Source: Bacillota bacterium (lineage in GTDB: Bacteria > Bacillota > Sulfobacillia > Sulfobacillales > Sulfobacillaceae). From it: a stretch of DNA of 64,000 nt. Under the pieces are notes generated by a model. The model was not told the DNA's origin. It worked only from the letters and a program-made list of their open reading frames with translations, and ran no database searches. The first letter of the stretch is position 1. Each line of letters opens with the position of its first letter. The DNA is taken from assembly GCA_023511625.1 (NCBI GenBank), contig JAIMBD010000013.1, positions 1 through 64,000 on the forward strand, given 5' to 3'. The position numbers and the translations under genes were made by a program. This document shows positions 3,932-45,968 of this stretch, piece by piece.

Positions 3932-5042
3932 CACCCCGACCAGGCCTTGGGCTTGCCGCCGCGCGTGCGCATTTCGCCGGGCTTGCAGGCGCTGGCGGTG
4001 CAGTGCGCGCTGGAGACCTCATACCATGGGGCGGCCCGGATTCTTCAGGCCGTCGTGCCGGGCGTCGATGCCATGACGGTGTGGAACACGGCGCAACGTG
4101 TGGGCACGGCGAAACGGCAGGCCCCAGGACACGCAGCGCCACGCCGTCTGGGACTGCGGGGAGGCGCCGACCGGCCTCCGCCGGCTGCGCCCATTGCCGG
4201 TGGAGGGGGATGGCGTCTGGGTGCGGAATCGCCAGGGGGGCGGTCACGAAGTCCAGCGGGCGGTGGCCTACGAGGGGAAGGCCCCCGTCGGCCAGGACCG
4301 CCGCGCCTTGGTGGGGCGGCAGGTCTATGCGGGGGTGGAGGCGCCGCGGCCGTTTGGGGAGACCGCGGTGGCGCGGTGGGGGGAGACCTGGGATTGGGGG
4401 GCGGTCGAGACCACGCACCTCGGGAGCGATGGCGCGGCGTGCAAGCAAGGGGCCCAGTACCTGCCCGGGGCCGTGCATCACCCCGCCCCCTATCCTCTGC
4501 GCCAGGCCCCCGGCACCGCGTGTAGGCAGGACCCCGACTGGCTGTGAGCGGTGGTCGCGGCGCTCACCATCCGGGACGGGGCTGCGGGGGACCGGGCGCC
4601 GACCGACGCCATGGGGCGCCCCCGGGGAGCCACGCGCCAGGCCCTGCGGGGCTTCTGGCGCTATGTGCAACCGCATGGGAAGGACATTACCCAGCCCGAG
4701 ACGCCGTCGTTGGGGGCGATGGAGGGTGAGGTCTATCACCGGGGGGCCCACCGCACAAAGCGGCATGGGGCGCAGTGGAGTGAGGTGGGCAACGACCCCC
4801 TGGTCCGGCTGCTGGCGACCGCGGCGAACGGCACGCTCGGGGAAGCCTGCGCACGGGTTCGGCCAACGCCGGGGGCATGGGCTGGGAACCGGAACAGCGC
4901 GCCCCCCTTGGTACGCCGGGAGCCGGGGGCCAGGGACGGGGCGTGGCTTCAAGCCCCTCTGCGGGCAGTGCAGGGGCCCCATGCCGACCGTCCGTGGGTG
5001 CGCTGGGGACTCCGTGAACTGGCCGGATTAGCCGCCGGCTGA
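3932..5042 (+). pseudogene. ISLre2/UPF0236-type transposase remnant
   Basis: Fragments of an ISLre2-family (UPF0236) transposase are found in different frames. The first (about 3940-4120) reads LGLPPRVRISPGLQAL and AARILQAVVPGVDAMT. After a frameshift near 4100-4150 it continues with VEGDGVWVRNRQGG, AVAYEGKAPVGQDRRALV and VYAGVEAPRPFGE, to a TGA at 4545-4547. The same frame resumes with LRGFWRYVQPHG, GAMEGEVYH and RRTKRHGAQWSE-like motifs to a stop at 5042. The normal N-terminal 100 or so residues are missing. With one frameshift, one internal stop and a truncation, it is dead. Confidence 0.7.
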
Positions 5043-5100
5043 TCCCAATCCGAGCAGTTTCCCTACGCAACCTTGACACGCACAGCAGCCCGGGGTCATC

Positions 5101-5129
5101 TTGTCACCCCTCGTGAAAGGGCGTATGCT
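5101..5129 (+). promoter_or_regulatory. Predicted sigma-A promoter of moaA
   Basis: TTGTCA (5101-5106), a 17-bp spacer and TATGCT (5124-5129) fit a vegetative promoter. Transcription would start near 5136, just upstream of the Moco-type riboswitch, giving an untranslated leader of about 85 nt before the moaA ATG at 5220. Confidence 0.55.
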
Positions 5130-5136
5130 GGCTACA

Positions 5137-5213
5137 AAGCGCGGTCGTGCACCGATTCGGCCCCCCGTCACGAGCCGAAAGGGGGCCCGCCTCCTGCTCG
5201 GCCAGAAAGGAGG
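5137..5213 (+). promoter_or_regulatory. Molybdenum cofactor (Moco) riboswitch candidate
   Basis: The leader contains GAGCCGAAAGGGGGCCCGCC followed by TCCTGCTCGGCCAG. This resembles the conserved core of the Moco RNA motif (GCCGAAAGG, GGC, CGCCTCC, TCGGCCAG) as I remember it. GAGC pairs with GCTC to close the core. The 3' edge runs directly into the AAAGGAGG ribosome binding site (about 5206-5213), so ligand binding could control translation initiation. The gene behind it is moaA, the classical target of this class. The 5' boundary is uncertain. Confidence 0.6.
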
Positions 5214-5219
5214 GTGGCC

Positions 5220-6260
5220 ATGTCTTCAGCGTCTGAGGGCCTGCTGCGCGACCAACTCGGACGGGCCCTTCGGGATCTCCGCATCTCCGTGACCGACCGT
5301 TGCAACTTTCGGTGCGTGTACTGCATGCCAAAGGCCGTGTTCGGCCAACACTTCCGGTTTTTGCCGCGCGAAGAGCTGTTGAGCTTCGAGGAGATTGAAC
5401 GGGTGGCGCGCCTTTTCGCCGAACTTGGCGTGCGCAAGATTCGCCTGACCGGTGGCGAGCCCCTGATGCGGCGCGAACTCGAGCGGTTGGTCGCGAAGTT
5501 GGCCGCCATCCCGGGCATCGAAGACTTGGCCCTGACCACCAACGGCGCCCTGCTGACGCCAGATCGGGCCCGTGCCTTGCGGGAGGCCGGGCTTCGCCGG
5601 GTCACGGTGAGCCTCGACGCCCTCGACGACGAGACCTTCCAGCGCATGAACGACGTGGGGTTTCCGGTCTCGCGCGTGCTGGACGCCATCGAAGCGGCAG
5701 CCCGCGCAGGACTGCGGCCGGTCAAGATCAATATGGTGGTCAAGCGCGGCTGGAACGACCAGGCCATCCTACCCATGGCCCAGCATTTTCGCGGCAGCGG
5801 CCACGTGTTGCGGTTCATCGAATACATGGATGTCGGCACGGCCAACGGGTGGCGCCTCGACGAGGTGGTGCCGGCGGACGAGATCCTAGACCGCATCAAC
5901 CGACACTGGCCCTTGGAACCCGTGCCCCCGGCCCATCCCGGCGAGGTCGCCACCCGCTACCGCTATCGGGATGGAGCCGGAGAGATCGGCATCATCGCCT
6001 CGGTCACGCACCCGTTCTGCCGCGGGTGCACGCGGGCGCGCCTGTCCCCCGAGGGGCAGCTCTTTACCTGTCTGTTCGCCGCCCGCGGGACGGACCTGCG
6101 CCAGCTGCTCCGAAGCGGAGCCGACGACGCCACCCTGATGGCCGCCATCCGCAACACGTGGCAAGGCCGTGCCGACCGCTACTCCGAGTTGCGGCGCCTT
6201 GACACCCCGTCCTTGGTCGGCACCCGGCCCAAGGTGGAGATGTTTCGGATCGGCGGCTAG
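5220..6260 (+). CDS. moaA: GTP 3',8-cyclase MoaA (molybdopterin synthesis)
   Basis: Radical SAM enzyme converting GTP to 3',8-cH2GTP, the first step of molybdenum cofactor synthesis. The N-terminal cluster motif CNFRCVYC gives C28, C32 and C35. The SAM-binding GGEP motif ([13 protein letters not shown]) follows, then the C-terminal [4Fe-4S] site [18 protein letters not shown]. The protein ends in Gly-Gly, as MoaA proteins do. At 346 residues it has the normal length. The ATG at 5220 lies 6 nt after AAAGGAGG. It stands alone, without moaC or moeA nearby, but a molybdate/tungstate transporter is encoded at 21824-24561. Confidence 0.95.
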
Positions 6261-6354
6261 CCGCCCCTTCTGCCTCCCCCGCCTGCACCGTGGGCCGCCA
6301 TCGCCGCTTTGTCCCTCTGCGGTGCTCCCCGCTCTCACCACTGCCCGTTGCAAG

Positions 6355-6382
6355 TTGTTGACAAAAGCGGGGAAAGTATTAT
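6355..6382 (+). promoter_or_regulatory. Candidate kdp promoter
   Basis: TATTAT (6377-6382) is a good -10 element, with TTGTTG 16 bp upstream (6355-6360). A better -35 hexamer, TTGACA (6358-6363), overlaps it but leaves only 13 bp. Transcription from here would begin about 20 nt before the c-di-AMP riboswitch. The exact -35 is unresolved. Confidence 0.4.
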
Positions 6383-6402
6383 CATGCGATTGAAATTGCA
6401 TT

Positions 6403-6556
6403 CGGGCGGACGACTGAATCCGGCCACGCCCGGCCGCGAGACGATCGCGCGGGGCCGGAACGGGGGACCCAGTGGAGGGGGCTTATCCCTGGAAGGCCAG
6501 GGAGGGGAGCACCACCCTAGCCCGGCAGCTAACCCCGTAAGGATGGTGCGCCGAAG
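6403..6556 (+). promoter_or_regulatory. c-di-AMP riboswitch (ydaO/yuaA class) ahead of kdp
   Basis: The leader contains the conserved blocks of the ydaO/yuaA c-di-AMP riboswitch in order: TGAATCC (6415-6421), ACGGGGGACCCA (about 6459-6470), GGGGCTTATCC (about 6478-6488) and CCCTAGCCCGGCAGCTAACC followed by CCGTAAGG (about 6515-6542). A T6 run near 6569 follows. c-di-AMP riboswitches commonly shut off K+ uptake genes when c-di-AMP is high, and here the kdp genes lie directly downstream, so the sequence and the context agree. I could not resolve a terminator stem with confidence. Confidence 0.85.
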
Positions 6557-6616
6557 CTCTGGGTGTGATTTTTTATTTGGCGAGCGGTCCGGGCGCGCCG
6601 GGATCAGGGGGATGCG

Positions 6617-6700
6617 ATGCAGGATCTCGGGGTGATCGGCTTCCTGGCGGCGATGTTCGCAGGACTGTGGGCGCTCCTCCGAGGCGCGCGCAACCTGTAG
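6617..6700 (+). CDS. 27-residue membrane micropeptide ahead of kdpF
   Basis: A short ORF, MQDLGVIGFLAAMFAGLWAL followed by LRGARNL, starts with ATG 6 nt after AGGGGG. It is a single hydrophobic helix with a basic C-terminal end, the general form of KdpF-type peptides. It lies between the c-di-AMP riboswitch and kdpF, so it is the first translated product of the kdp transcript. I do not know a named family for it. It may be a second KdpF-like stabilising subunit or a leader peptide. Confidence 0.5.
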   Translation: MQDLGVIGFLAAMFAGLWALLRGARNL

Positions 6701-6743
6701 GCAGTCCCGCCGCCAATCGGGGCGCAGGAAAGGAGGCCATCGC

Positions 6744-6827
6744 GTGTTGGACTGGGTGCTTTTGGGATTGTCCGGCGCCGTCATGGCGTACCTCTTCTAC
6801 GTCATCCTGCATCCGGAGGAATTCTGA
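6744..6827 (+). CDS. kdpF: KdpF subunit of the K+-transporting ATPase
   Basis: A 27-residue hydrophobic peptide (VLDWVLLGLSGAVMAYLFYV then ILHPEEF). One transmembrane helix ending in a P-E-x-F type tail is the signature of KdpF, the small stabilising subunit of the KdpFABC complex. GTG at 6744 follows AAAGGAGG by 7 nt; the next codon TTG is an alternative start. It is too short for normal gene callers. kdpA begins 58 bp downstream. Confidence 0.8.
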   Translation: MLDWVLLGLSGAVMAYLFYVILHPEEF

Positions 6828-6885
6828 CCGGGTCCGCACCGTCCGGTCGCGGTTCCCGCATCACTGGCTCAAGGAGATGACGTTT

Positions 6886-8577
6886 GTGTCGCTGGACGCC
6901 GCGGCGAGTTGGGTGGCGGTGCTTGCATTCTTCGCAGTCATCTTAAAACCGGTTGGTCGGTACATGGGCCGGGTATTCACCGGCCAGCGCACCCTCTTGG
7001 ACCCCGTGTTCAGCCCCTTGGAACGGCGCTTATGGCGCTGGGCAGGGATCGACCCCCAAGCCTCCATGACAGCCGTCCAATACGGCACTGCCTTATTGGC
7101 GACAAACGCGCTGTGGGCCGTGTTTGCCTACCTCGCCCTGCGGGCCCAGAGTCACCTCCCCTTCAATCCCCAGCACTTCCCCGGGCTTACGCCGCCACTC
7201 GCCTTCAACACGGCCGTCAGCTTTGTCACCAACACCAACTGGCAGGCCTACGCCGGCGAGAACACCCTGAGTTATTTCTCCCAGTTCGGCGTCCTCGGCT
7301 TCCTGCAGTGGGTCAGCCCGGCCGTAGGCCTTGCCGCCTTGGCAGCCTTCCTGCGCGCGTTAGCCGGCCGCTCGCTCGGCAACTACTTCGTCGACCTCAC
7401 GCGCGCCATCACCCGCCTGCTGTTGCCGGCAGCAGTGGTGTTGGCGGTGGTGCTGGCCGCCTTGGGCGTGCCGGAGACCTTGGCCGCATACGTCCACCTG
7501 CATCCCCTGAGCGGCGGCAGCACATGGTTGCCGCGGGGACCCATCGCCTCCTGGGAGGCCATCGAACACTTGGGAACCAACGGCGGCGGATTTACCGCCG
7601 CCAACAGCGCCAACCCCCTAGAAAATCCCTCCCCCCTCACCAACTTGTTGGAGATCGCCGCCATGGGCCTGTTTCCGGTGGCGTCCTTTTACGCCTTTGG
7701 CTACGTCACCGGACGCCCCCGGGCGGCGTGGACCCTCATCGCCGTGGCCGCCGCCTTCTATCTGGCCATGTTGGCCTTGGCGTACTTCCCAGAGGTGGCC
7801 GGAAACCCTGTGCTCAACCGGCTGGGATTGCACGGCACGGCCAATTGGGTGGGAAAGGAGCTGCGCTTCGGCATCGGCGGCAGCGCCCTCTTCCAAGCTT
7901 CGTCGCTGGCCTTCACCACCGGTTCGGTCAACGCCGCGCCGGACAGCATGGTGCCGCTGTCGACCTTAAGCCTCTTCCTCGGCCTCCTTCTCAATATGGT
8001 CTTTGGCGGCGATGGCGTGGGGCTGCTCAACTTTTTAATGTTCGTTATCCTCACCGTCTTCCTTTTGGGCTTGATGGTCGGTCGGACCCCGGAGTTCTTG
8101 GGCAAGAAGATCGAAACCCGGGAGGTGTCGCTCACGGCGTTGGCGTTTTTGGTCCACCCCCTTTTGATCCTGGGCGCCACTGCCCTGGCGGTCTCCCTGC
8201 CAGCGGTCCATGACACCCTCAACCGCGGCCCGCAGGGGTTGACGGAGATCTTATACGGCTTCGCGTCGACGGCCGCCAACAACGGATCGGCCATGGGCGG
8301 GCTGGAGGCGGGCGCGCCGTTTTACCTTTGGGCGACAGGAGTGGTGATGCTGATCGGGCGGTACGTGTCGATCCTGTTGCTCCTTTTGGTGGGGGAGTCG
8401 CTGCTGGCCAAAAAGGCGGTCCCGGAGTCGCCCGGCACGATGCACACCGACACGCCGCTCTTCGGGGGAGCGCTGTTCGGCGCCATCCTGGTGCTCAACG
8501 CGCTGACCTTCCTGCCGGTGATGGCCTTGGGCCCGGTGGCCGAAACCTACCTCTTGGGCGCTCATCGGTTGTTTTGA
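6886..8577 (+). CDS. kdpA: K+-transporting ATPase subunit A (KdpA)
   Basis: The K+-channel-like subunit of the high-affinity KdpFABC pump, related to the SKT/Trk superfamily. It shows the KdpA hallmarks: KPVGRYMGRVFTGQRT after the first helix, SFVTNTNWQAYAGE (first selectivity region), EHLGTNGGGF, LAFTTGSVNAAPDS-like and ASTAANNGSAMGG near the C-terminus. The protein has 563 residues and about ten hydrophobic segments, the family's usual size. GTG at 6886 is chosen because AAGGAG lies 9 nt upstream; the ATG at 6877 directly abuts that site. The operon order kdpF-A-B-C is normal, and regulation is inferred from the riboswitch. Confidence 0.95.
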   Translation: MSLDAAASWVAVLAFFAVILKPVGRYMGRVFTGQRTLLDPVFSPLERRLWRWAGIDPQASMTAVQYGTALLATNALWAVFAYLALRAQSHLPFNPQHFPGLTPPLAFNTAVSFVTNTNWQAYAGENTLSYFSQFGVLGFLQWVSPAVGLAALAAFLRALAGRSLGNYFVDLTRAITRLLLPAAVVLAVVLAALGVPETLAAYVHLHPLSGGSTWLPRGPIASWEAIEHLGTNGGGFTAANSANPLENPSPLTNLLEIAAMGLFPVASFYAFGYVTGRPRAAWTLIAVAAAFYLAMLALAYFPEVAGNPVLNRLGLHGTANWVGKELRFGIGGSALFQASSLAFTTGSVNAAPDSMVPLSTLSLFLGLLLNMVFGGDGVGLLNFLMFVILTVFLLGLMVGRTPEFLGKKIETREVSLTALAFLVHPLLILGATALAVSLPAVHDTLNRGPQGLTEILYGFASTAANNGSAMGGLEAGAPFYLWATGVVMLIGRYVSILLLLLVGESLLAKKAVPESPGTMHTDTPLFGGALFGAILVLNALTFLPVMALGPVAETYLLGAHRLF

Positions 8578-8652
8578 CCGGTGGGTTAGGAGTTTTCAGG
8601 CGCGTCCGCCCGAACCGAGGCGGTGCGCCACCAAGCCAAAGGGGAGACAGCA

Positions 8653-10662
<2,010 letters not shown>

Positions 10663-10706
10663 CCGCGCCGGCAGGCGGTGGGACGACAAGAGGGAGGCGT
10701 GCACCC

Positions 10707-40404: not shown

Positions 40405-41265
40405 ATGCGAACGTTGACCCAAGGGGAGATCAAGGCCTTGATCGTCCTGTTAGGCGATGAAGACATCAAGACGGCCCAAATCGCGCGCAGGGTGTTGATC
40501 GAGGCGCGGCGGGAGGCGCAGCCCTACTTGGAGGCAGTGCGCGACACCCTCGACCCCCACGTCCGCACGCGGGTGTACAGCATCTTGGAGCGCCTGCGCC
40601 TGGACGAACTCGGCGAGCGCTTCCGGGCCTTCGCGTCGGTGCCCTCGGCGTGGCTCGACCTCGAAGAAGGCGCCTTCTTGATCGCCGAGGCAGGGTATCC
40701 CAACATCAACCGCGCGCACTACCGCGCCATGCTTGACCAGATGGCGGAGACCTTCCGGCTTCGGATGGAATCGCAGCCGGGCGGGGGATGGAAGGGCCGC
40801 GAGCTGTTGGAGCGGTTCAACGACTACTTCTTCAACGAGCTCGGGTTTACCGGCAACCAGGAAAACTACTACGACCCCGACAACACCTATATCAACCAGG
40901 TGCTCGATCGGCGGCTCGGCATTCCCATCAGCCTCTCTACGGTCTACCTCCTTTTGGCCAAGCGCCTGCGCCTGCCGGTAGTGGGCGTAGGCATGCCCGG
41001 CCACTTCCTCCTCCAGTACAACGACAGCCTGTACGTCGACGCGTTCCACAAGGGCCAGATCCTCAATCGGGGCGAGTGCGTGCAGTTTCTCATGAACAAC
41101 GGCTTTGGGTTCCACCCGGCGTACTTGAGCCCCACGCCCACCCGCTTCATCTTGGTGCGCATGCTGACCAACCTCATTCAGATCTGCACCACCCAGGACC
41201 CCGACCGAGCCGAATCGCTGGCGGCCTTCCGCGACATGTTGACCCGCGCCCACGTCAATGTCTAA
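40405..41265 (+). CDS. SirB1-family transglutaminase-like protein
   Basis: A 286-residue cytosolic protein of the SirB1 family (transglutaminase-like fold, often with TPR features). Typical segments are LDLEEGAFLIAEAGYPNINR, FNDYFFNELGFTGNQENYYD followed by PDNTYINQVLDRRLGIPISL, VGVGMPGHFLLQY and YVDAFHKGQILNRGECVQFL. ATG at 40405 follows AAGGAGCGAAGG. The family is widespread, but its biochemical role is not established. It is monocistronic and convergent with asd. Confidence 0.85.
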   Translation: MRTLTQGEIKALIVLLGDEDIKTAQIARRVLIEARREAQPYLEAVRDTLDPHVRTRVYSILERLRLDELGERFRAFASVPSAWLDLEEGAFLIAEAGYPNINRAHYRAMLDQMAETFRLRMESQPGGGWKGRELLERFNDYFFNELGFTGNQENYYDPDNTYINQVLDRRLGIPISLSTVYLLLAKRLRLPVVGVGMPGHFLLQYNDSLYVDAFHKGQILNRGECVQFLMNNGFGFHPAYLSPTPTRFILVRMLTNLIQICTTQDPDRAESLAAFRDMLTRAHVNV

Positions 41266-41328: not shown

Positions 41329-42402
41329 TTACGACCCAAAAACCCCTTGACTCAAGAGCGCCTCGGCCAATAAGACGGCTCCCTTGCCGGCGCCCATCTT
41401 GGTGTTGTGGGAAACCAGGACGTATTTCACGCCTCCTAAGACCGGTTCCGGTTCGACCCGCCCCACGCTGGTGGTCATGCCGTCACCGAGGTCGCGGTCT
41501 CGCCGCACTTGCGGGCGAAACGGGTCCTCGAAGACATGGATCCACTCTGCCGGGGCCGAGGGCAGGGCCGGGCCGGCAAACGGCCGGTATTCCCGCAGTG
41601 CCGCCTTGACCGCCTCCACCGTGGCCGGGCGCTCGAGGCCCGCAAACACCGCTTCGGTGTGGCCGTCCAACACCGCCGCCCGCGTGCAGATGGCGTTGAT
41701 GGGAATGGAGGCCGGCCGCACCGTCTCGCCTTCGACGCGCCCCAAGATCTTGCCGAGTTCGGCTCGCACCTTCTCTTCTTCCTTGGGGATGTAGGGCAAG
41801 ATGTTGTCCAAGCTGTCCAGCGTCCGCACGCCCGGGCTGCGACCGGCACCGCTCACGGCCTGCATGGAGACCATGAGCACCCGGCTTAGCCCGAAGGCGT
41901 CGGCCAACGGCTTTAAGGTGATGGCCAAGCCGGTGACGGTGCAGTTGGGGATGGGGACCACAAAGCCCTGCCAGCCCCGCCGCCGCTGCTGCACGCGGAT
42001 GAGCTCGGCGTGGTGGTGGTTGACACCGGGGATCATGAGCGGAGTGTCCGGCTCCTGTCGAAACGCGGAAGCGGTGGAGAAGGTGGGAGTAGTGGCGGCA
42101 AACCGCGGTTCCAACTCCCGGGCCACGTCGGATTCCACGGCAGTGAAGATGACGTCCACCGACTTGGGGTCGAAGGCGTCCGACTGCACCACCGGCACCG
42201 CCTCCATGTCGTCGGGAACCTCCGCGCTTTGGGTCCACCGCGACGCGCCGTCCGGCTCCAACAGGGCGCGCCGGTAGTCGGGCGCGGAACGGGAGGACAC
42301 CATCACCGTGACCTCAAACCAGGGATGATGGGACAAGGCCTGCACGAACTGCTGACCGGCCATGCCGGTTGCCCCTACGATGGCTGCCTTCAACTTCTGC
42401 AT
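41329..42402 (-). CDS. asd: Aspartate-semialdehyde dehydrogenase, archaeal/fungal-type
   Basis: 357 residues. The N-terminal NADP-binding motif AAIVGATGMAGQQFVQAL, the catalytic cysteine region VPIPNCTVTGLAITLKPLAD (Cys in PNC) and MQAVSGAGRSPGV match the archaeal/fungal branch of Asd, not the usual bacterial one. ATG at 42402 follows GGAAGGAG, while the in-frame start at 42447 lacks a site. It reduces aspartyl phosphate for Lys/Thr/Met synthesis. This branch also includes malonyl-CoA reductases of some thermophiles, so that activity cannot be excluded from sequence alone. Four 9-bp repeats lie upstream. Confidence 0.82.
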   Translation of the reverse strand: MQKLKAAIVGATGMAGQQFVQALSHHPWFEVTVMVSSRSAPDYRRALLEPDGASRWTQSAEVPDDMEAVPVVQSDAFDPKSVDVIFTAVESDVARELEPRFAATTPTFSTASAFRQEPDTPLMIPGVNHHHAELIRVQQRRRGWQGFVVPIPNCTVTGLAITLKPLADAFGLSRVLMVSMQAVSGAGRSPGVRTLDSLDNILPYIPKEEEKVRAELGKILGRVEGETVRPASIPINAICTRAAVLDGHTEAVFAGLERPATVEAVKAALREYRPFAGPALPSAPAEWIHVFEDPFRPQVRRDRDLGDGMTTSVGRVEPEPVLGGVKYVLVSHNTKMGAGKGAVLLAEALLSQGVFGS

Positions 42403-42481
42403 CGTCTGCTCCTTCCAGAAAGAAAACCCCCGGGCTCCCCGCAGCACCGCCCACCGGATGCCGTCCTTCTGTTGGTGGCGT

Positions 42482-42517
42482 CCGTACGTTCCGCACGTTC
42501 CGTACGTTCCGTACGTA
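42482..42517. repeat. Four 9-bp tandem repeats upstream of asd
   Basis: CCGTACGTT, CCGCACGTT, CCGTACGTT and CCGTACGTA follow each other without spacers, 80-115 bp upstream of the asd start. Each unit contains the near-palindromic TACGT core. This could be a protein-binding array in the asd control region or simple slippage. Confidence 0.6.
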
Positions 42518-42635
42518 TGGTAGCGAAGGGCCGCGCCGGCATCAACCAGGGACGCCGCCGACTCGAGGGCCTGTCCGCAAGGCCACCTTGGTCTCCGAGG
42601 GCGCCCACGCCAACCCTCGCCGCAAGGAGCCGGGA

Positions 42636-42646
42636 TGTGCTACAAT
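42636..42646 (+). promoter_or_regulatory. Extended -10 promoter of the ferredoxin-NADP reductase gene
   Basis: TGTGCTACAAT is an extended -10 with TACAAT. It is nearly the same 11-mer as the hemE and GGDEF-EAL promoters. The start of transcription would be about 115 nt before the TTG start. Confidence 0.5.
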
Positions 42647-42768
42647 CTCGTCTTGGTTTAGCATGGCGGGCTGAGGTCCGCCCAAAGGCCCAATCTGGAC
42701 GCCGGTGGCCTACGCCGGGGGGCTTTGCGTTGCGATCGGCGCCGCGCCTAGTGAGGAGGAGGCCAGGC

Positions 42769-43773
42769 TTGGCACAAGACGCAGTGGATCGGTTTGACCT
42801 CACGGTGATCGGCGGAGGGCCGGTGGGCCTGTTCGCCGCAGCCTTGGCGGGCATGCACGGCATGAAGACCAAGCTGATCGAGGCGTTGCCGTATCTCGGC
42901 GGACAGTTGACGGCCCTGTATCCAGAGAAGTGGATCTACGATGTGGCCGGGTTTCCGCGGGTGTTGGCCAAAGACCTGGTGGAGCACCTCGAGCAACAGG
43001 CGCGCCGCTACCATCCTGCCATCGTACTGGAAGAGACCGTAGACCGCCTGGAGGCCCTGCCTGACGGCGGGTATCGCCTGTACACCGACCGGGCCGCCCA
43101 CGAGACCCGCGCCATCCTCATCACCAGCGGTATCGGTGCCTTTGCCCCCCGCAAGTTGCCGGTTGCCGGAGCCGAACGCTTCGAAGGGCGGGGACTCTAC
43201 TACTTTGTCCCCCCCATGCAGCACTTTGCCGACCAGACAGTGGTGGTCGTGGGCGGCGGCGACTCCGCCTTGGACTGGGCCTTGGCCGCTTCCGAGGTGG
43301 CCAAGTCGGTCTTGTTGGTCCACCGCCGGGACGAATTCCGCGGCCAAGCCGAGACCCTGCGCCAGGTGATGGCGCGGCCCAACACAGCGGTCCGGGTCTT
43401 CACCGAGGTCCGCAACTTGGCCGGAACGAGCCGGCTTCAAGCGGTCGAACTCATCGACCACAAGACCAAGGCCACCGAGTGGGTTACGGCAGACAGCGTC
43501 ATCGCCGCGTTGGGGTTTCATTCCAGCCTCGGGCCCATCAAAGACTGGGGGCTCGAGTTTCACGGGGCCAATATCGTCACCTACGAAGCGGGGCAGACCA
43601 GCCGGCCGGGCATCTACGCCGCCGGCGACGTGGCCTACTATCCGGGTAAAGTGAAGCTCATCGCCACCGGGTTCGGCGAGGTAGGCAACGCCATCGGACA
43701 CATCCGCGGGTATCTCCACCCTGGGCACAAAGGGGGCCTGCCCCACAGCACCAACCTCAAGATGGGCGAATAG
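42769..43773 (+). CDS. Ferredoxin/flavodoxin-NADP(+) reductase, TrxR-like (YumC type)
   Basis: 334 residues with two Rossmann motifs: FAD site LTVIGGGPVGLFAAALAGMH and NADP site VVVVGGGDSALDWALAASEV. It has no CxxC redox pair, which separates it from thioredoxin reductase. Further segments are EALPYLGGQLTALYPEKWIY, GIGAFAPRKLP and IYAAGDVAYYPGKVKLIATG. TTG at 42769 is the likely start, 6 nt after GAGGAGGAGG. It could transfer electrons between NADPH and the 7Fe ferredoxin at 20209. It overlaps the convergent ArsC-like gene by 17 nt. Confidence 0.9.
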   Translation: MAQDAVDRFDLTVIGGGPVGLFAAALAGMHGMKTKLIEALPYLGGQLTALYPEKWIYDVAGFPRVLAKDLVEHLEQQARRYHPAIVLEETVDRLEALPDGGYRLYTDRAAHETRAILITSGIGAFAPRKLPVAGAERFEGRGLYYFVPPMQHFADQTVVVVGGGDSALDWALAASEVAKSVLLVHRRDEFRGQAETLRQVMARPNTAVRVFTEVRNLAGTSRLQAVELIDHKTKATEWVTADSVIAALGFHSSLGPIKDWGLEFHGANIVTYEAGQTSRPGIYAAGDVAYYPGKVKLIATGFGEVGNAIGHIRGYLHPGHKGGLPHSTNLKMGE

Positions 43774-44110
43774 CCGCCAACAAGGCCTCCCACCGGGCGG
43801 GATCGAATCCGACCGCCGTGCCGTGGTCGGTGACCAAGATCGGCCGGCGGATTAAGCGCGGCTCGGCAGCCATGGCTTCAAGCCACGCCGTCGCCGTCGC
43901 CGGCGGAGGATTGAGTTGCTTGGCCTTGGGGCTCTTGGACGAGACCAGCGCCGGCACGCCGCCGGCAAGCTCCGCCAACCGGGAAAGTTCGTCCACTGTC
44001 AGCGGCGCCGCAATCAGGTCGCGTTCCTCAACGGCCACCCCGCGTTGCCCAAGCCACGCTCGGGCTTTCTGGCAGGTGCTTCACCGCTTATACCCGTAAA
44101 ACTGAACCAT
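43757..44110 (-). CDS. ArsC/YffB-like thioredoxin-fold protein with in-frame UGA (candidate selenoprotein)
   Basis: ATG at 44110 opens MVQFYGYKR, then UGA (44083-44081), then STCQKARAWLGQRGVAVEER, and runs 107 codons to a normal stop at 43757. Family members (YffB/YusI, arsenate reductase-like) read YGYKxCSTC here, so UGA replaces the first redox Cys while the second is kept. The rest is intact: AAPLTVDELSRLAELAGG, then the C-terminal RLIRRPILVTDHGTAVGFDP. A hairpin at 44047-44065 lies 15 nt after the UGA. It is 72 bp downstream of the GGDEF-EAL gene on the same strand. AAGGAG is 14 nt from the ATG, rather far. The alternative is a nonsense mutation. Confidence 0.65.
44047..44065 (-). promoter_or_regulatory. 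Candidate bacterial SECIS hairpin
   Basis: In the minus-strand RNA, GCCCGAGC (44065-44058), loop GUG (44057-44055) and GCUUGGGC (44054-44047) form eight consecutive pairs, one of them G-U. The loop starts 24 nt after the UGA, within the 16-37 nt window known for bacterial SECIS elements, and contains G in its first two bases as that model asks. The hairpin lies wholly inside the coding sequence, as bacterial SECIS elements do. Confidence 0.5.
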
Positions 44111-44182
44111 CGCTCGATCGCTCGCTCCTTCCGTCGGGTTGGAATCGCCGTTTTGGGGGCCCGCGCGGCTTTTTGGGTCTCG

Positions 44183-45928
44183 CTACTGCCAGGTGCGGGC
44201 TAAAAGCGCCGGCACTTCTTCGCGGGGCAGCGGCGGGCTGAACCACCAGCCCTGGGCGGCGTCGCACCCCCACGCCCTCAAGGCGTCGCTCTGCTCTCCC
44301 TCCTCCACCCCTTCGGCCACCACCTCCACCCCAAGGGGGTGGCTCATGCCCACGATGGCCTGAATCACCGCCCGCCCGGCCGGGGATTGCCAATCGCGGA
44401 GAAAGCTGTGGTCGATCTTCACGCTGTGGATGGGCAGCCGGTGGACATGGGCCAAAGAACTGTATCCGGTGCCGAAATCGTCTAGGCTCAATCGGTACCC
44501 CGCCTGCGCGATCCGTGCCGCCACCGCCGCCACCGCTTCGAAGTCGGCCAGCGGCGCCGATTCCAGCACCTCGAAGTGCAGCGCCGAAGCCGGAAGGCTC
44601 GGATAGACGGCGCGCACGCTGGAGACGATGCTGAGCCACAGCGGGTCAGTCACGGCCTGGGTGGCCACATTGACCGAGATGAACCCGCTCCACCCCCGCC
44701 CCCGCCACTCGTTTAAGGCGTCTAGCGCCTGGCGCAGGATGACCCCATCGAGAGCCCGCACCAATTCCTGCTGGTGGACGAACGGCAGAAACTCCCCCGG
44801 CAGGTGGACCGTGCCCACCTCGTCGATGTACCGCATCAAGGCCTCAAACCCACGGACGCGCCCGCTGCGGAGGTCCACGATGGGCTGAAAGAAGGCGTGG
44901 ATGCGCCCGGCCTTCAGGGCGTCCCGCAACACCAAGGCCCACTCCTCGGCCACTCCGGTCTCTTGTTCCAGCCGCTCGGCCGCGGCCCAGCCTCGGTTGC
45001 TCCCCTTGGCCCGGTACAGCGCGCGGTCGGCCTGGCCGAGGAGGTCGGCGGCCGCTTCTCCGTCGTGCGGGTAGCGCGCCACGCCCAGCGTGGCCGACAC
45101 CCGCACCGTAATCCCTTGCACGGTGATGGGCGGTTCGATGGCGGCGCGAAATTTACGCATCAGCCCCGGCAGATCAGCGGCGTTGTGGATGCCGGCCAGG
45201 ATGAGCAGAAACTCGTCGCCGCCCCACCGCCCCACCCAATCGGTGCGGCGCAGGGTTTTGGACCAGCGCTGGGCCACGGCCTTGAGCACCTCGTCGCCGA
45301 CGGCGTGGCCAAAGGTGTCGTTGACCGCCTTGAAGCCGTCGAGATCGGCCAAGACCAAGGCAAACGGTTGCTGCTGGCGGAGATAGGCCTGAAGCTGCAT
45401 CTCCGTAGCCAGCCGATTCGGTACCTCAGTCAGCGAGTCGTGGAAGGTAAAGAAGGTGGTCTGGACCGCCGTCAGCGCCATGAGGTCGATAGCCATGCGC
45501 TTGACCACTGTCTCCAACAGCGCTGGACGCGCCGCATCCATCTCGCTGCGCGCCTCGCGCACCTCGCGCAACGCCTCTTGCGTCAGAAGGCCGAAGGCGC
45601 CGATGAACCAATCGCTCGGCACCCCGAGGCGCACATGGCGGCTGCCCACGCGGTGGAGGGCTTGAAGCCGGGTTTCGTCGCCAGGTGGCGCGACGAGTCC
45701 ACGGAGGTACTGGGCCACGAGCGGAGCGAGCGCCGCCGGGCGGGTATGCGCGTGGACGATGCGGGCAAAGAGCGGGACCTCGACCAACCGCCCCACGAAG
45801 CGCTGGGCGACAGCCGGAGCCAAGGTATCCCACGGCAGGCTCTCAAGCCGTGCCTGGTCTGCATCGGTCCACTCCCACCACGCAGTCCACGGCAGCGCGT
45901 GACCACCCAGTTCTGAGGCCAAGGGCAT
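44183..45928 (-). CDS. Globin-coupled GGDEF-EAL protein (c-di-GMP turnover)
   Basis: 581 residues. Residues about 15-175 resemble a protoglobin sensor (FVGRLVEVPLFARIVHAHTR and LHRVGSRHVRLGVPSDWFIG with the likely haem-binding His). The GGDEF domain keeps the active site (RWGGDEFLLIL), and the EAL domain keeps its glutamate motif (GFEALMRYIDEVG) and LDDFGTGYSSLAHVHRLPIH. Both synthesis and hydrolysis of c-di-GMP are possible, with O2 or redox sensing by haem. The start is ATG 45928, or TTG 45922 with better spacing from GGGGAGGG. The ArsC-like gene follows 72 bp downstream. Confidence 0.88.
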   Translation of the reverse strand: MPLASELGGHALPWTAWWEWTDADQARLESLPWDTLAPAVAQRFVGRLVEVPLFARIVHAHTRPAALAPLVAQYLRGLVAPPGDETRLQALHRVGSRHVRLGVPSDWFIGAFGLLTQEALREVREARSEMDAARPALLETVVKRMAIDLMALTAVQTTFFTFHDSLTEVPNRLATEMQLQAYLRQQQPFALVLADLDGFKAVNDTFGHAVGDEVLKAVAQRWSKTLRRTDWVGRWGGDEFLLILAGIHNAADLPGLMRKFRAAIEPPITVQGITVRVSATLGVARYPHDGEAAADLLGQADRALYRAKGSNRGWAAAERLEQETGVAEEWALVLRDALKAGRIHAFFQPIVDLRSGRVRGFEALMRYIDEVGTVHLPGEFLPFVHQQELVRALDGVILRQALDALNEWRGRGWSGFISVNVATQAVTDPLWLSIVSSVRAVYPSLPASALHFEVLESAPLADFEAVAAVAARIAQAGYRLSLDDFGTGYSSLAHVHRLPIHSVKIDHSFLRDWQSPAGRAVIQAIVGMSHPLGVEVVAEGVEEGEQSDALRAWGCDAAQGWWFSPPLPREEVPALLARTWQ

Positions 45929-45968
45929 CCCTCCCCGCGCGGTCGCTGCTGGCTCCCTCATTTGCACG

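Follow-up and report, generated by a model that had tools for sequence, protein, structure and literature searches.

Selenoproteins of the ArsC family have been predicted repeatedly from genomic and metagenomic data. A Sargasso Sea sequence with a UxxS motif was predicted as the selenoprotein "arsenate reductase" (PMC1088965), the 2006 set from complete genomes, including that of Desulfotalea, comprised ArsC-like selenoproteins (PMC1794560), and an ocean survey predicted a pfam03960 group with UxxS and a cd03032 group with UxxC, designated as "arsenate reductase 2" (PMC2398784). A 2026 catalogue lists ArsC-family selenoproteins under TIGR00014 (UxxS) and NF041106 (UxxC, "arsenate reductase-like") (PMC13188914). 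Sulfobacillus has been reported to possess Sec-containing formate dehydrogenases (PMC4378227) and the peroxiredoxin PrxU (PMC7409299). In the part of the literature covered, we found no paper naming the Sec protein described here in Sulfobacillus.

Among the closest known systems, Spx and YffB have Cys where the protein studied here has a predicted Sec. YffB is an ArsC-family protein that has been proposed as a thiol reductase, with a proposed dependence on glutathione. The cd03032 subfamily in CDD is presumably the Spx-type one.

Here we describe an ArsC-family gene with an in-frame UGA, located in a 64,000-nucleotide stretch of DNA (the window). Its product, hereafter the window protein, shares with the previously predicted selenoproteins the PF03960 fold, the Sec in place of the catalytic Cys and the bSECIS directly downstream. 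In contrast to the catalogued sets, it scores below the cut-offs of both TIGR00014 (39.8 vs 106 bits) and NF041106/ArsC_rel_Se_1 (27.4 vs 85), and it passes none of the current selenoprotein models that we scanned. The Sulfobacillus-order form further differs from the predicted sets in its order-wide fixation as the sole family member and in its partner residue, which is C, S or A. Because of the scores below the two cut-offs, this form is a new subfamily of an already known, predicted kind, with the cd03032 reads compared by description only. The sequence-only reading of the window had called the gene a candidate new selenoprotein. All computational checks that it had suggested were positive, and none of the outcomes that it had named as refuting turned up; its assignment as a selenoprotein stood, whereas a new kind did not, given that such proteins have been predicted since 2005-2008 (PMC1088965, PMC1794560, PMC2398784). 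What is new lies in the details: nearly the whole order has this form fixed as its only ArsC-family protein, a third of the orthologues have lost the partner Cys, the gene is linked to fur, and the SECIS covariation is of good quality.

The UGA-containing gene and its distribution

When read through the UGA, the minus-strand frame gives MVQFYGYKR-U-STCQKARAWLG and continues for 107 codons past the UGA with no other internal stop, as the sequence-only reading had it (Table 1). The product matches Pfam ArsC (PF03960; 4.2e-15, 56.3 bits against a gathering cut-off of 24). Homologues have either UGA or Cys in the column concerned, which bears out the earlier placement of the UGA at the redox Cys of an ArsC/YffB-like protein. 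The UGA-interrupted gene almost certainly yields a full-length small redox protein with Sec in its active site. Gene calling that treats every UGA as a stop would truncate it.

Table 1. Position of the predicted selenoprotein gene, its elements and its neighbours in the window
Feature	Position	Strand	Remarks
Pyridine-nucleotide-disulfide oxidoreductase (thioredoxin-reductase-like), convergent	42010..43773	+	Pfam Pyr_redox_2; NCBIfam TRX_reduct below cut-off
ArsC-family selenoprotein gene (predicted)	43757..44110	-	ATG 44110-44108; 117 residues via one UGA; terminal TGA 43757-43759
bSECIS hairpin GCCCGAGC-GUG-GCUUGGGC	44047..44065	-	Apical loop GUG 44057-44055; supported by published limits, fold and covariation
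UGA codon 10, predicted Sec	44081..44083	-	At catalytic Cys position (Spx C10, ArsC C12); UGA in 36/36 order orthologues, Cys in phylum homologues
AAGGAG, possible ribosome-binding site	44125..44130	-	Read off the sequence; 14 bases 5' of ATG, a long spacer
Protoglobin-GGDEF-EAL protein, upstream neighbour	44183..45967	-	72 bases from the selenoprotein ATG; Pfam Protoglobin, GGDEF, EAL

Orthologues were searched for in 61 genomes, 42 of which belong to the order of the window (the Sulfobacillus order). An orthologue is present in 36 of these 42 genomes, at 43-59% protein identity, and every one of the 36 has the single TGA at the same codon and none has Cys there. All 36 carriers possess selA (33 genomes) or, in the remaining three, which are draft assemblies, selD. 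No orthologue was found in six order genomes: two from genus g4, three whose assemblies are 59-63% complete, and G035. Neither selA nor selD exceeded the cut-off in the two g4 genomes. G035, assembled as a single contig, is the sole complete genome of the order in which SelA and SelD are present together with zero ArsC-family proteins.

The Pfam ArsC query gave exactly one match over the cut-off in 30 of the 33 order genomes, always to the UGA form; that is, the Sec form is the sole PF03960 protein in 30/30 positive genomes. In nearly the whole order, to which the acidophilic, metal- and sulfur-oxidising genus Sulfobacillus belongs, the ArsC/Spx family is represented by the Sec version alone. 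Sec and Cys forms alternate at this column outside the order, with three switches between the two required on the tree. Throughout the phylum, selA is present in 34/34 genomes with the Sec form vs 16/46 genomes with the Cys form only (Fisher p = 1.2e-10). An apparent TGA in one further genome, G129, was rejected as a Sec form: the site is Cys, the TGA is the end of the frame, and the genome has no selA. A contig-level genome scan matched four relatives, all of them distant, and plasmid records matched only homologues of <60% identity, such as Spx.

Selenocysteine machinery and the hairpin downstream of the UGA

The genome of the window, a 40-contig draft of 97% completeness, encodes SelA, SelB (over the cut-off), SelD and tRNA-Sec, and hence the full set of components named in the sequence-only reading. 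Its selD has an in-frame UGA (TGA) of its own, so that SelD itself needs UGA readthrough. In the same genome, selA lies directly after apparent hemA-hemB-type haem-synthesis genes, as read from translations (locus L002 on contig C16, about 3994-10678).

The hairpin following codon 10 starts 15 nt and its loop 23 nt past the UGA, and its stem of 8 bp includes one G-U pair. The position, length and GUG loop given in the sequence-only reading were thus confirmed, whereas its description of the stem as perfect was not. Published limits for a bSECIS are a loop of 3-9 nt, a stem of 4-16 bp, a G within the first two loop positions, a distance of 16-37 nt from the UGA and a free energy of <= -7.5 kcal/mol; the hairpin lies within all of them, with 3 nt, 8 bp, G in first place, 23 nt and -12.8 kcal/mol. 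Folded alone, it reached -14.3 kcal/mol, and 0 of 200 dinucleotide shuffles were equally stable. Synonymous recodings of the same peptide did not give an equally stable hairpin in any of 150 cases, so the hairpin exceeds chance. The fold of the whole 54-nt region did not discriminate by itself from synonymous recodings (z = -0.39 for the window), since pairing is already promoted by the conserved codons for ARAWL; tests specific to the hairpin and to covariation took its place. An Rfam scan returned only a mir-49 match, far below the gathering score, which we took as chance.

At least seven of the eight pairs are formed in 29/52 Sec genes vs 0/18 Cys genes, and the GUG loop is kept in 48 of the 52 Sec genes. 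Across 45 Sec sequences, changes on both sides of the stem numbered 35, against 11.3 for shuffled data, and covariation scored 0.278 vs at most 0.090 with the partner strand slid; as the shuffles leave sequence relatedness in place, these counts are strong support, not proof. The pairing is visible at the codon level: lysine (AAR) or AGR-coded arginine goes with UCG-coded serine, and CGN-coded arginine with GCN or GGN. Under a strict perfect-stem rule, 24/36 order members pass vs 4.7 expected from synonymous recodings, as do 8/37 Sec homologues outside the order (0.7 expected) and 1/19 Cys genes (0.5 expected). Two genomes (G017 and G029) keep the stem with a bulge. The orthologue set is good covariation material for a SECIS model of this lineage.

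ArsC-like proteins with UGA in the same column were also observed in other Bacillota branches (e.g., L118-L142), with a different and often shorter hairpin (e.g., AAGCCAAGGAUUGGCUU). These differing hairpins hint at a second SECIS type.

The UGA could instead terminate translation, in a pseudogene or through a sequencing error, so that nothing or only a 93-residue downstream ORF is made. UGA is indeed a stop in table 11, and an ORF starting from GTG at 44038 exists. However, none of the 36 orthologues has TAA, TAG or Cys in place of the UGA, the flanking residues are conserved in frame on either side, the SECIS covaries and the genome has a complete Sec system. Since the orthologues with UGA include those of finished chromosomes (S. 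thermotolerans Kr1 and S. acidophilus), sequencing error is excluded, and we regard termination as extremely improbable. On the sequence data, there is very little doubt that the UGA at 44083-44081 would be decoded as selenocysteine. In the proposed mechanism, the organism's own SelA/SelB/SelD/tRNA-Sec system would decode the UGA, the bSECIS hairpin would direct Sec insertion, and the product would be a thioredoxin-fold protein of 117 residues with Sec at the catalytic position. Overall, a full-length Sec protein of the ArsC/Spx/YffB family, made by the native Sec system under the direction of the bSECIS, is very probably the best explanation of the locus.

Fold, active site and proposed function

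An AlphaFold2 model built from 63 aligned sequences had a pLDDT of 92.8, and the solved structures nearest to the predicted fold are those of Spx, YffB and other ArsC-family proteins. Spx/MgsR gave the best fold match (B. subtilis Spx, PDB 3gfk; TM 0.85, 27% identity). YffB (PDB 1rw1) shares the fold to a similar degree (TM 0.84, 29% identity) and is similar in length, and one catalytic residue suffices for it.

The match to Spx raises the question of whether the window protein is a transcription regulator under redox control that binds the alpha C-terminal domain of RNA polymerase and replaces Cys-Spx. The best matches in sequence as well as in fold are Spx structures, and the protein, as the sole member of the ArsC family in the order, is in Spx's place. 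We compared 35 aligned rows using the residue roles of PMC2801614: all rows agree at the R92 position, and G52, which is required for polymerase contact (PMC2801614), is kept in 29/35 rows. In contrast, the partner Cys C13 is present in 22 rows and missing in 13, K62 occurs in 0/35 rows with Pro in 33, the R60 position is occupied by K, R or T, and the C-terminal tail of Spx, some 15-20 residues, is missing. Scores for the Spx subfamily tend to lie far under the cut-offs. With TIGR01617 (arsC_related, the Spx/MgsR subfamily model; cut-off 75.05 bits), the window protein fell just short at 73.6 bits and the same-genus relative reached 85.9. These data speak weakly for Spx membership, and a seleno-Spx appears unlikely to us. 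A Sec-based redox switch on RNA polymerase, with Sec as the sensor residue and in place of Cys-Spx throughout the Sulfobacillus order, would be decidedly doubtful. Our search of the literature on Spx with selenocysteine found nothing relevant, nor did one on the family models. The gene set offers a test of whether Sec ever serves in an RNA-polymerase regulator.

Arsenate reduction is the other function that the family would suggest. The three arginines that bind the anion in ArsC are R60, R94 and R107; in the window protein one of them is replaced by Lys and another lacks a counterpart, which argues against arsenate as the substrate, as do the TIGR00014 scores of the Sulfobacillus-family relatives scanned (27-44 bits), which like the 39.8 bits of the window protein lie far from the equivalog cut-off of 106. 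The loci read showed no recognisable ars genes next to the gene, and nearly all these genomes have proteins of the phosphatase-like fold that some arsenate reductases use. On the other side are the ArsC fold and family of the protein, the earlier prediction of Sec-containing ArsC proteins under the name arsenate reductase (PMC1088965) and a gap that such an enzyme might fill: two papers report S. thermotolerans with arsR and ArsA/ArsB and without arsC (PMC6803676, PMC7409299), yet the genome matched to this species carries the UGA-split ArsC-family gene. A selenocysteine arsenate reductase that fills this gap is improbable in our view, and the sequence evidence for arsenate reduction is weak. 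Neither role, regulator or arsenate reductase, is favoured.

We lean instead towards a catalytic monoselenol, as opposed to a regulator that binds RNA polymerase. The motif of the order orthologues is UxxC in 23, UxxS in nine and UxxA in four, and 13/36 orthologues, among them the one from G001, the nearest relative, do not have any Cys. This rules out an internal Se-S bond as the mechanism common to all, and a lone selenol that works with an external thiol is the most likely one. In this scheme, the Sec selenol would act as the only nucleophile in a small oxidoreductase of the cytosol and would attack an oxidised substrate, either a mixed disulfide or an oxyanion; a thiol system would then regenerate the selenol, and would have to be external given the 13 Cys-free orthologues. 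BshC, which acts in bacillithiol synthesis, was not detected in any of 29 order genomes searched, which makes bacillithiol unlikely as the reductant. The orthologue set is well suited to the question of why Sec was kept while the partner Cys was lost.

Genomic neighbourhood and further UGA-containing genes

The sequence-only reading had taken the globin-GGDEF-EAL gene upstream as a hint at a redox link. The gene is real, and its domains were confirmed by Pfam in the window (Protoglobin PF11563 at 3e-13, GGDEF and EAL), but the hint did not hold: among the contexts read, this arrangement, with a spacing of about 72 bases, occurs only in the window and in the same-genus relative G001, and most relatives have a gene of the Fur family immediately upstream. 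The globin-GGDEF-EAL neighbour is thus a local arrangement, not evidence of function. A Fur-type gene lies upstream, within 40 bases or with an overlap of a few bases, in 12 of the 16 order genomes read besides the window and G001. This neighbour was read from the sequence, and the Fur family was confirmed by models in four genomes (G005, G023, G014 and G037); with simple ORF calling, it was not clearly shown in G034, G040, G041 and two class-level relatives. Judged by position alone, the recurrent proximity to fur may point to a function in iron or oxidative stress.

On the other side of the gene, the convergent oxidoreductase gene runs 17 bases into the 3' end of the selenoprotein gene; its domain begins at about residue 262 of a long ORF, and its start is uncertain. 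Further along, a conserved protein beginning MRTLTQGEIKALIVLLGDDDIKTA is encoded at 40405-41265 (+) of the window, and in many relatives, judged by eye, it follows the selenoprotein gene within about 1.2-4 kb on the downstream side. By the same inspection, several relatives have molybdenum-cofactor genes nearby.

Other genes with in-frame UGA codons were observed in the order. G001 encodes a second, distant ArsC-like protein of 36% identity, whose motif is UGAC and whose gene has the same GUG hairpin (L064:6652-7002, contig C7); the same search did not find such a protein in the genome of the window. G041 encodes a short glutaredoxin-like protein with an active-site UGA (L073:3270-3485, contig C40), and its Cys version is present in the genome of the window (L072:3510-3734, contig C37 of G000). 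Two matches to PF01451, the low-molecular-weight-phosphatase type, contain one in-frame TGA each (G011:C51:703-978 and G017:C1:433863-434258) and represent further selenoproteins or broken genes.
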